A stretch of 64,000 bases of DNA, taken from contig NZ_JAKRFD010000012.1 of NCBI RefSeq assembly GCF_022348185.1, positions 62,001 to 126,000 on the forward strand. The letters run 5' to 3'. A program made the translations under genes and the position numbers. Of this stretch, positions 3,603-21,947 are shown one piece after another. The DNA comes from Epibacterium sp. Ofav1-8. GTDB taxonomy: Bacteria; Pseudomonadota; Alphaproteobacteria; Rhodobacterales; Rhodobacteraceae. Position 1 is the first letter of the stretch. The number at the start of each line of letters is the position of its first letter. Below the pieces are notes generated by a model. That model was not told the DNA's origin, searched no databases, and was given only the letters and a program-made list of their open reading frames with translations.

Positions 3603-3677
3603 TGGAGCGGGCGAGGCGATTCGAACGCCCGACCCTAACCTTGGCAAGGTTATGCTCTACCCCTGAGCTACGCCCGC
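3603..3677 (-). tRNA. tRNA-Gly (anticodon GCC), copy 1
   Basis: A 75-nt tRNA including an encoded CCA end. The acceptor stem GCGGGCG pairs with CGCCCGC, the discriminator base is T, the TTGCCAA anticodon loop gives anticodon GCC, and the T-arm has GTTCGAATC. The sequence is identical to copies 2 and 3. Its own promoter lies about 20 bp upstream and a terminator follows. Confidence 0.97.
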
Positions 3678-5818: not shown

Positions 5819-5893
5819 TGGAGCGGGCGAGGCGATTCGAACGCCCGACCCTAACCTTGGCAAGGTTATGCTCTACCCCTGAGCTACGCCCGC
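5819..5893 (-). tRNA. tRNA-Gly (anticodon GCC), copy 2
   Basis: A 75-nt gene with encoded CCA, identical to copy 1: acceptor stem GCGGGCG/CGCCCGC and anticodon loop TTGCCAA (GCC). It sits just beyond the end of the RTX gene in the opposite orientation. Confidence 0.97.
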
Positions 5894-6074: not shown

Positions 6075-6149
6075 TGGAGCGGGCGAGGCGATTCGAACGC
6101 CCGACCCTAACCTTGGCAAGGTTATGCTCTACCCCTGAGCTACGCCCGC
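6075..6149 (-). tRNA. tRNA-Gly (anticodon GCC), copy 3
   Basis: A 75-nt gene with encoded CCA, identical in its mature sequence to copies 1 and 2 (anticodon GCC). It is the first of the three in the direction of transcription, but each copy has its own promoter and terminator. Confidence 0.97.
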
Positions 6150-18019: not shown

Positions 18020-18056
18020 AAAGCCCCCGCCGCGGATGGACCGCTGCGGGGGCTTT
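18020..18056 (-). terminator. Terminator of the DUF1127-CcsR transcript
   Basis: On the minus strand, GC-rich arms (AAAGCCCCCGCAGCGG and CCGCGGCGGGGGCTTT) enclose a short loop and are followed by a T-rich GTGTTTTG tract. It lies just past the fourth CCTCCTCCC hairpin, so it closes the transcript that begins at the DUF1127 gene. Confidence 0.75.
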
Positions 18057-18093
18057 TGTCGTTTCAGCGTTGCGGGATAGGGCTGAACAGGAA

Positions 18094-18130
18094 ACGGCGG
18101 CGCCCAGGGAGGAGGAGAGGGCACCGCCGT
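18094..18130 (-). ncRNA. ccsR4: CcsR-like small RNA hairpin 4
   Basis: A 12-bp stem (18094-18105 with 18119-18130) holds CCTCCTCCC in its loop on the minus strand. The only plus-strand mismatch (C101/A123 in local numbering) becomes a G-U pair in minus-strand RNA, which supports transcription from that strand. Last of four tandem units of the CcsR (CCUCCUCCC motif stress-induced RNA) type. Confidence 0.8.
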
Positions 18131-18139
18131 TCTGTCAAA

Positions 18140-18170
18140 CACCAGGTTAAAGGGAGGAGGAAACCCGGTG
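18140..18170 (-). ncRNA. ccsR3: CcsR-like small RNA hairpin 3
   Basis: A 9-bp stem (18140-18148 with 18162-18170) with loop CCTCCTCCC on the minus strand. Its single mismatch (A at 18144, C at 18166) is a U-G pair only in minus-strand RNA. Confidence 0.8.
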
Positions 18171-18202
18171 CATCTGGGTCCGGCTCTGGGCCGGTGTAGG
18201 GT

Positions 18203-18236
18203 GCGGTGGCATCAGGGAGGAGGAAGATGCCACCGC
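18203..18236 (-). ncRNA. ccsR2: CcsR-like small RNA hairpin 2
   Basis: A perfect 11-bp stem (GCGGTGGCATC at 18203-18213 with its complement at 18226-18236) displays CCTCCTCCC in the loop on the minus strand. Stem sequences differ between the four units while the loop is constant, showing selection on the loop motif. Confidence 0.82.
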
Positions 18237-18242
18237 CTAGGA

Positions 18243-18274
18243 CAGGTCCTTAAGGGAGGAGGAGAAAGGACCTG
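18243..18274 (-). ncRNA. ccsR1: CcsR-like small RNA hairpin 1
   Basis: A perfect 9-bp stem (CAGGTCCTT at 18243-18251 with AAGGACCTG at 18266-18274) and loop CCTCCTCCC on the minus strand, 14 bp after the DUF1127 stop codon. The loop is an anti-Shine-Dalgarno-like sequence that can pair with GGAGG. In Rhodobacter sphaeroides the four CcsR RNAs are processed from the transcript of a DUF1127 gene induced by stress sigma factors. Confidence 0.82.
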
Positions 18275-18287
18275 ATCTCTTGTGTTC

Positions 18288-18506
18288 TCAGATATTTCCG
18301 TAGGCCGCTTCGAGGGCGACCCGCTTCAGCATGGAGCGGTTGAGGCCGAGATCCGCCAATTCGCGACCGCTCAGGGCGTTGAGCTCGGTCAGGGTCTGGC
18401 GATAGACGCGGTACTGCGCGACCTTCTCCCGCAGCGCCTGCACCATCTGCGCGACGCCTGCAGGGGCGAAGGATTTCTGGGTGTGGATCTGGTTCAGAAG
18501 GGCCAT
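18288..18506 (-). CDS. DUF1127 small RNA-binding protein, CcaF1-like, co-transcribed with CcsR RNAs
   Basis: This 72-residue arginine-rich protein ends in the DUF1127 (YjiS-like) signature: TELNALSGRELADLGLNRSMLKR followed by a short tail. In Rhodobacter sphaeroides the corresponding gene upstream of CcsR1-4 encodes CcaF1, an RNA-binding protein that influences sRNA maturation and turnover; the same gene order is seen here. The start at 18506 (MALLNQIHTQK) is chosen because the family begins here. It is divergent from mrp. Expression is probably stress-induced (RpoH-type sigma factors) by analogy; no clear promoter was identified. Confidence 0.88.
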   Translation of the reverse strand: MALLNQIHTQKSFAPAGVAQMVQALREKVAQYRVYRQTLTELNALSGRELADLGLNRSMLKRVALEAAYGNI

Positions 18507-18825
18507 CGTTTCGTCTCGCTCTGGATCGTCGGGGCCGTATGCCCGTTCGCTTGTGTCCGTGTTGTTGATCCTTAAGATAAGCGAATGCTGCAAATGCACA
18601 ATCCGGGAATTGGTCATTTCTGCTATGCAGCAAGTGCATGGGTAAAACGGATATTTTTCGGAAGCTGCCCAAAGCTTGCGCGATTTTATGTCCAGGCGCC
18701 ACGGATCTGGGCAACAATTGATCGCGCGCGGCGTTACCGCTGCCATTTTGCCGCTTGGGCTGTGGGCGCAGAGCGCATATATGCCGAGACAGCCGCCCGC
18801 GGCGCCCACAGAAGGAGTACAGCCG
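18507..18825. other. Divergent intergenic region between the DUF1127 gene and mrp
   Basis: About 320 bp with promoters expected for both directions. On the minus strand TTGTGC and TTATCT are about 15 nt apart roughly 60 bp before the DUF1127 start; this could be a stress promoter but the match is weak. A Shine-Dalgarno GAAGGAG lies before mrp. No gene is seen. Confidence 0.4.
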
Positions 18826-21057: not shown

Positions 21058-21300
21058 CCTGTCCTCCGGTCGTCGCCTTTCATTACAGTTCCGGGGCAGC
21101 GTCGAAAGCAGGCCGTGAGATGCTGCAACCTGAGCCGGGCACCCATCTCTCCACCACCATCAAAGCTGTTGTTTCAGGGGATCCCCTTGCCCTTTGAACC
21201 TGCTGCGACTTAAGCGTTCCTTCAGTTCCGCCTCAACCCAAAACCGCGGTGCTGCAAAAAAGTCCGTCACGCTACAGCGGGGCAGGCGGCTTGGGGTGGC

Positions 21301-21347
21301 TGGGCGGGGCGGTTGGGAAATCATGGGATCTGTGGGAAACCGTGGGC
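21301..21347 (+). promoter_or_regulatory. Candidate MraZ operator (phased TGGGA repeats)
   Basis: TGGG occurs at 21301, 21314, 21324, 21333 and 21343; three of these are TGGGA. The last four are spaced 10, 9 and 10 bp. MraZ of E. coli autoregulates the dcw operon by binding direct repeats of TGGGA spaced 10 bp on the coding strand. The same strand and periodicity occur here. A further TGGGA lies at 21478. The distance to mraZ (about 600 bp) is unusually long. Confidence 0.6.
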
Positions 21348-21428
21348 GCTTCACGGCACCAGCTCAAAACGAATCACGCATTGGCCTCTGGAGGAGGGGC
21401 AAGACCTGCGATTTGGGGTGTTGCGTGA

Positions 21429-21443
21429 GAACGTTGTGAGAAC
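21429..21443 (+). promoter_or_regulatory. Candidate SOS box (LexA operator) upstream of mraZ
   Basis: GAACGTTGTGAGAAC is a perfect GAAC-N7-GAAC direct repeat, and its flanks (TGAGAACG, GAGAACAC) resemble the uvrD site (TGTGAACG, GTGAACAC). This agreement outside the core makes a chance match less likely. Confidence 0.5.
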
Positions 21444-21495
21444 ACGCCAAGGCGCTCGATCCGTTCCAGAAGAATCGTGGGAAACTAGGGGAAGT

Positions 21496-21524
21496 TTTTC
21501 TCGGCTGCAAGTCGTGCGTATATA
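21496..21524 (+). promoter_or_regulatory. Possible promoter of the mraZ operon
   Basis: TTTTCT, a 17-bp spacer and TATATA form a sigma-70-like pair just downstream of a TGGGA repeat at 21478. It would give a leader of about 420 nt before mraZ. The -35 element is poor. Confidence 0.3.
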
Positions 21525-21947
21525 TGGTGGTCCCTTGTGGTTTTGCACCAATATACGGCAGAAAACTCCTAATTTTCTCTTGAGATCACGCGCAAAATGC
21601 GACTCGCACTGCCGATTCTGGGCGTGTCGTGGCAAAAATCCCTTGCGGGGCCATGCATTCCCATAGTATCCCTAATTCATCCGATGAGGACGAAGAGCAC
21701 GGGGCACCAAACGACCCCAACCTTACAAAACGGCAGGTTTCATACAGGCCTTCGCTTTCATCAACAAAGAGATCCGGCGCGCGGGCGAGCAGACATCCCC
21801 CCAGGTGGCGCGCGCAGTCGGACACCCCGCAAAGCGGGTCAAGGCGGCGGGTTGATCAGTGGCAGCGGATCAACTCGCCCCTTTTAGTTTCGGGCCCCTG
21901 AATTGGGGCGACACGGCAACGCGAGGGACGCGGAAAGGGTCGGCACA

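Follow-up and report, generated by a model that had tools for sequence, protein, structure and literature searches.

In Rhodobacter sphaeroides, the CcsR1-4/CcaF1 locus is described as a DUF1127 gene and a set of anti-Shine-Dalgarno hairpin RNAs on one strand, with a terminator behind (PMC10253847, PMC8625941, PMC8307010). RS0680a, an RNA of this organism, is reported to have two stem-loops (PMC3927594), and a figure legend gives the operon promoter as RpoHI/RpoHII (PMC10253847). The cuckoo RNAs of Sinorhizobium, NfeR1/alpha-r14 and SmelA075, are described as sets of three or four hairpins that share CCUCCUCCC loops and vary in their stems (PMC3927594, PMC10746234, PMC7143759). NfeR1, with three such loops, reportedly represses transport-protein mRNAs through redundant anti-Shine-Dalgarno loops (PMC7143759, PMC8844928), and the function of its loop motif is reported as genetically confirmed (PMC7143759). 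The same RNA is stated to need LsrB, whose motif TGCA-N6-GCAT was mapped at -72 to -60 (PMC10746234). In Brucella and Agrobacterium, the LysR regulator VtlR is described as controlling DUF1127 genes and AbcR-type sRNAs (PMC12595884, PMC7486931), and CAATGCAGCCATGCA is the VtlR motif reported for Brucella (PMC12595884). For the Rhizobiales, published accounts place both DUF1127 genes and anti-Shine-Dalgarno sRNAs under VtlR/LsrB (PMC12595884, PMC7486931, PMC10746234). A search of the open-licence literature found no link between CcaF1/CcsR and LsrB/VtlR; PMC12501420, which reports that DUF1127 proteins of Agrobacterium and Salmonella act via protein contacts, names both CcaF1 and LsrB, the latter once, in its reference list.

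The window, by which we mean the whole 64-kb stretch of DNA that was analysed, contains a locus that, judged by its sequence, is of an already known kind, the CcaF1-CcsR type (CIN1, cuckoo RNA). A short DUF1127 gene on the minus strand (18288-18506) encodes a CcaF1-like protein of 72 amino acids, compared with the 71 given for R. sphaeroides CcaF1. The Pfam DUF1127 model (PF06568) recognises it at 47.3 bits against a cut-off of 23.3, and an NCBIfam search of the protein returned no match. Directly downstream on the same strand are four hairpins whose stems differ and whose loops conform to CCUCCUCCC, as in cuckoo RNA/alpha-r14 and CIN1: H1 (18243-18274, loop CCTCCTCCC at 18254-18262, -14.2 kcal/mol), H2 (18203-18236, loop motif at 18215-18223, -22.5 kcal/mol), H3 (18139-18171, loop motif at 18152-18160, -14.1 kcal/mol) and H4 (18086-18136, loop motif at 18107-18115, -31.2 kcal/mol). 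A small G+C hairpin without the loop motif (18180-18194, minus strand) lies in the linker between the two hairpin pairs and, as alignment columns 98-113, is retained in most of 11 aligned loci. The locus is flanked by a divergent mrp-like and a convergent uvrD-like ORF, the names being taken from the preliminary description and assigned by eye.

That description had claimed the DUF1127 identity of the upstream ORF, four minus-strand hairpins with a common loop nonamer 3' of its stop codon, and the mrp/uvrD neighbourhood, and these claims hold, the third as far as names given by eye go. It had also noted two stem mismatches on the plus strand that become G-U pairs only in minus-strand RNA, and the folds agree: the mismatches lie in H3 (around 18152) and H4 (around 18107), which reach -8.3 and -26.4 kcal/mol on the plus strand versus the values given above for the minus strand. 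All four CCTCCTCCC copies lie wholly inside predicted loops of the minus-strand folds. They are the only copies in the 64 kb, all on the minus strand between 18107 and 18262; in 100 dinucleotide shuffles of the whole window the mean was 0.94 and four was never reached. Across the whole genome, close tandem pairs of loop motifs numbered one with a narrow pattern and two with a wider one, and these matches are accounted for by the pairs H1-H2 and H3-H4. An Rfam scan of the window found three tRNAs only, with no family at threshold for the hairpin array. The tRNA genes (3606-3677, 5822-5893 and 6078-6149, minus strand) have the same score of 65.4 bits and are perhaps identical copies. Of the terminator proposed behind the array, the structure stood up: the last inverted repeat folds into a strong hairpin (18020-18057, read here on the minus strand), a probable terminator common to the convergent uvrD. 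A consensus scan called only part of it a terminator, on the plus strand only.

We collected 59 further loci from named genomes with the DUF1127 protein alone as query, the RNA motif playing no part; their record titles are mostly of roseobacter-type genera or Rhodobacteraceae. With the window they make 60 loci, and because the loci are related, counts over them are not independent. CCTCCTCCC was present in sense orientation within 1,500 nt 3' of the DUF1127 stop in 51 of the 59 (two stretches being shorter). It was found in none of the 59 in antisense orientation within 1,500 nt downstream, and in none on either strand in up to 1,500 nt upstream. The core TCCTCCC occurred within 450 nt downstream in 58 loci, L086 being the exception, and never in antisense. 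Most of the eight loci without CCTCCTCCC retain hairpins with a shortened loop. The metagenome-derived loci L080-L084 have loops cut to TCCTCCC or similar, and no TGCA-N6-GCAT in the 320 nt upstream. Persistence of stems after loss of the loop, which the preliminary description had named as an outcome that would speak against its assignment, was seen at most in L086; L087 is altered. An mrp match was present in the fetched stretch at 41 of 59 loci and a uvrD match at 46 (some contigs are short). A search in the reverse direction, by loop pattern alone, gave a tandem loop pair in 216 of 295 evenly drawn family genomes; among 30 loci fetched from these 216 genomes, 27 had a DUF1127 match in the stretch, which in 26 cases lay upstream in the same orientation.

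Across the 59 relatives and the window, with none dropped, 216 of 234 motif copies fell wholly within a hairpin loop, compared with 38 of 234 when the flanks were shuffled; of the 18 remaining copies, several seem to form clear hairpins in which the fold uses a motif base. Eleven of the 13 four-loop loci were aligned, and in them 10 of 48 consensus pairs, distributed across all four hairpins, showed compensatory changes on both sides. Loops that stay constant on stems that drift suggest selection on the RNA structure. The earlier assignment to CcsR/CcaF1 is supported by covariation and wide conservation as well as by gene order, strand and loop motif.

The identification of the four hairpins with CcsR1-4 is not supported in that form. 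Distances from loop to loop alternate between a short step (below 55 nt, in most cases 35-49) and a long one (usually 60-74), the alternation holding in 117 of 133 neighbouring distance pairs, which makes two hairpins the unit of the array. Since RS0680a is likewise described with two stem-loops (PMC3927594), the four hairpins of the window correspond to about two CcsR RNAs, whereas R. sphaeroides is reported to have four CcsR RNAs of two stem-loops each. The eight hairpins (and one loose motif copy) counted by eye in Pseudogemmobacter humi would fit CcsR1-4, R. sphaeroides being known here from published descriptions only. Among the 60 loci, 0-11 loop motifs were present within 1,000 nt, and because the number varies in relatives it does not define the wider family. 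One locus (L011, genome G165) has 26 CCTCCTCCC motifs 3' of its DUF1127 match and in the same orientation, and its match list shows three loop spacers in repeating order. The last hairpin is followed by at least six T in eight positions in 35 of the 52 loci with a loop, compared with 4 of 182 inner copies, and in those 35 loci it looks like the terminator itself. In the window, the last motif hairpin has a poorer T tail (5 of 8), with another hairpin behind it. In Shinella sp. PSBB067 (L112), about 200 nt separate the DUF1127 gene from a four-loop array, with a terminator-like hairpin seen by eye between them, and gene and array may form two transcripts.

We sampled 309 genes, called by a simple ORF method, from about 464 kb of the 4.76-Mb genome (20 stretches plus the window); 303 starts, which are not curated, were used and six at stretch ends were dropped. 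The full 9-nt loop complement GGGAGGAGG was found before none of the 303 sampled starts. The shorter GGGAGGA stood before 5 of 303, small numbers, versus 0.07% of 20,000 random windows. Twelve starts flagged for GGGAGG or GGAGGAG include, by eye, those of some transport proteins, an acetyl-CoA synthetase and a formaldehyde-dehydrogenase-like protein. These sites fit a short pairing of the loops with strong ribosome sites but do not single out targets. The anti-Shine-Dalgarno role suggested earlier agrees with the published NfeR1 work, but in the form of shorter pairings only.

On the promoter side of the DUF1127 gene, an alignment of 15 of the 60 upstream regions revealed one block far better conserved than its surroundings, which includes TGCA-N6-GCAT. 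In the window this is box 1 (18625-18638, minus strand), a candidate LysR-type (LsrB/VtlR-like) site at about -71 to -58 from a start predicted from the -10, close to the position mapped for the LsrB motif of NfeR1 (PMC10746234). A second candidate, box 2 (18585-18598, minus strand), has the same form, lies exactly 40 nt from box 1 and falls between the -35 and -10 of the candidate core promoter TTGTGC-N16-TATCTT (18574-18601, minus strand), which was read by eye from the same alignment and has a weak -35. A sigma-70 consensus scan found no promoter. Of the 60 loci, 48 have at least one TGCA-N6-GCAT box in the 320 nt upstream, against 0.05 expected per locus; some of the 48 match at the second box only, and 12 loci are without a box. 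The longer form of box 1 occurs in 39 of 60 loci, two boxes 39-40 nt apart in 23, and two longer conserved elements 29-30 nt apart in 42. An older box, GCAT-N3-TG-N3-T, is absent from the conserved place and was found upstream in 5 of 60 loci only.

The 15-nt VtlR motif matched at 12 or more letters (12-14) in 34 of 60 loci versus 4 of 1,100 control windows taken from the same loci; 19 of the 60 reached at least 13 letters, versus none of the controls. The window's own match has 11 letters, a level that 94 of the 1,100 controls reach. TGCA-N6-GCAT occurs quite often singly (8 copies in the window versus 4.16 expected). A pooled motif at up to three mismatches gave 9 sites in the window versus 8.32 expected, a number at chance level, and stands out there by its place only. 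Sites of the VtlR type with 13 of 15 letters lie upstream of a DUF1127 gene with array in Paracoccus jeotgali and upstream of SmelA075 on pSymA. Shinella has a TGCA-N6-GCAT box before the DUF1127 gene and four CCTCCTCCC loops behind it, and its 15-nt motif scores 11. Genome-wide, the conserved dyad, which might mark a large regulon, had 36 sites at up to three mismatches (one exact, four with two mismatches and 31 with three), compared with 3 for a reversed control. Of four dyad regions inspected, two have the site inside a long ORF (L109, L110) and two near a short ORF (L108, L111); in L111, overlapping dyad-like sites with three mismatches each lie at about 900-940 on the minus strand upstream of the short ORF, possibly a further target of the same regulator.

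From the strong conservation of the double LsrB/VtlR-like box we predict a switch shared across two orders, and for this operon LsrB/VtlR-type control, which would either replace or supplement the RpoH control known from R. sphaeroides. The stress sigma factors named in the preliminary description are not what the conserved signal indicates: it is a double box over a weak -35, as opposed to the RpoHI/RpoHII promoter described for R. sphaeroides (PMC10253847).

A gene for an LsrB-like regulator is present. As query we used a Shinella protein encoded next to trxB, which we take to be LsrB from this neighbourhood and from the gene order and protein of rhizobia. In the window's genome it found one outstanding LysR protein (42% identity, 255 bits; next 129), and the reciprocal search returned Shinella LsrB at 254 bits (next 151). 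Over the first 66 residues, the DNA-binding part, 47 are identical to LsrB. The gene is not beside trxB as in Shinella: by eye the neighbour there is Lrp-like, and 9 kb contained no LysR gene. The gene was found in 283 of 290 sampled family genomes (E 1e-60); across the class, 106 of 190 sampled genomes had LsrB-like proteins (E 1e-55). In three small trees with long paralogue branches, the family clade sits on the path to one paralogue group and not cleanly inside LsrB, and we therefore call the protein LsrB-like. The Rhodobacterales clade may be the true LsrB orthologue or a close sister, the trees being compatible with either. LsrB has been stated to be unique to Rhizobiales (PMC11975290), whereas the abstract of PMC7486931 describes a regulator conserved in the class.

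Taken together, the locus is very probably a CcaF1-CcsR-type operon whose anti-Shine-Dalgarno RNAs, cut by RNase E, lower translation, and which is activated by an LsrB/VtlR-type regulator at the two boxes. We infer transcription, processing, target repression and regulator binding along the following lines. A single transcript would run leftwards from about 18567, encoding the small DUF1127 protein and continuing through two two-hairpin units in its 3' UTR to H4 or to the terminator that follows. On the model of R. sphaeroides, RNase E, aided by the DUF1127 protein, would cut the 3' UTR into small RNAs. Their C/U-rich loop letters would pair with GGAGG-type ribosome sites, mainly on mRNAs for transport and carbon metabolism, and lower their translation, several hairpin copies giving a higher dose. 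Transcription would be switched on by the LsrB/VtlR-type LysR regulator at the two boxes 40 nt apart.

The same operon and RNAs could instead be driven by RpoHI/RpoHII, with the dyads serving another LysR or dimeric regulator or the divergent mrp, an alternative that we regard as possible but unlikely. The published promoter of R. sphaeroides (PMC10253847) favours it, as do an intergenic region common to DUF1127 and mrp, a -10 that may contain RpoH letters, and trees that do not settle the regulator's orthology to LsrB. Against it, the fetched stretch has no mrp match in 18 of 59 relatives, 13 of which still have a box. The elements are also spaced 29-30 nt apart in 42 of 60 loci, with one of the two over the -35/-10 of the DUF1127 side, and their letters match motifs tested for LsrB at NfeR1 and reported for VtlR.

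Rather than pairing with mRNAs, the loops could be landing sites for a protein (Hfq, a ribosomal protein or the CcaF1-type DUF1127 protein), with the array acting as a sponge. In favour of this, PMC10253847 describes the CcaF1 of R. sphaeroides as RNA-binding, gene and array lie together whichever side the search starts from (51 of 59 and 26 of 30 loci), and the array varies widely in size, up to 26 loop motifs, as a dose-dependent sponge might. We nevertheless hold the idea to be improbable. The conserved loop letters are the complement of Shine-Dalgarno sites, genetic confirmation of the same loop motif's function has been reported for NfeR1 (PMC7143759), and in Shinella a terminator-like hairpin, seen by eye, stands between gene and array about 200 nt apart. 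That the hairpins are mere 3'-end protectors or tandem terminators with a relic loop motif is more doubtful by far, and we give it hardly any weight: the T-rich stretch behind the last hairpin would suit such roles, but it is nearly confined to that hairpin, and these roles need stems and no fixed 9-nt loop, whereas here stems diverge and compensate and loops stay.

Beyond what is known of the RNA family, the analysis adds that hairpins form units of two, that the last of them often looks like the terminator, that arrays range widely in size and that a double LsrB/VtlR-like box is well conserved. The resemblance of the switch to that of rhizobia may be a new link. The arrangement differs from the rhizobial ones, in which DUF1127 genes and sRNAs are described as separate VtlR targets in Brucella and Agrobacterium (PMC12595884, PMC7486931), and NfeR1 and SmelA075 of Sinorhizobium as separate sRNA genes, with no co-transcribed DUF1127 gene mentioned in the accounts drawn on here; the window has the DUF1127 gene and the hairpins on one putative transcript. 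A joint reading, to which we give an even chance, is that an LsrB/VtlR-type regulator controlling DUF1127 and anti-Shine-Dalgarno hairpin RNA predates the split of Rhizobiales and Rhodobacterales, and that Rhodobacterales joined the two outputs in a single operon. Tandem duplication of two-hairpin units, up to the 26 loop motifs of the largest array, would then tune the dose of a general translation brake, and RpoH control, as in R. sphaeroides, would be either an addition or a change that came later. If the LsrB/VtlR link is true, the literatures on rhizobial LsrB-NfeR1/AbcR and DUF1127 and on Rhodobacter CcaF1-CcsR deal with a single old circuit, and the restriction of LsrB to Rhizobiales stated in PMC11975290 needs a closer look.

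The surroundings of the array offer a further parallel. The sRNA names RS0680a (CcsR-type) and RSs0682 (UpsM, the dcw leader) suggest, as far as names go, a neighbourhood in R. sphaeroides like the mrp-uvrD-mraZ order here. A long gap (21058-21902), some 3 kb away from the array, precedes the mraZ-like ORF that opens the dcw cluster. In R. sphaeroides this is the place of UpsM, an abundant sRNA, and the gap may contain an UpsM-like leader.
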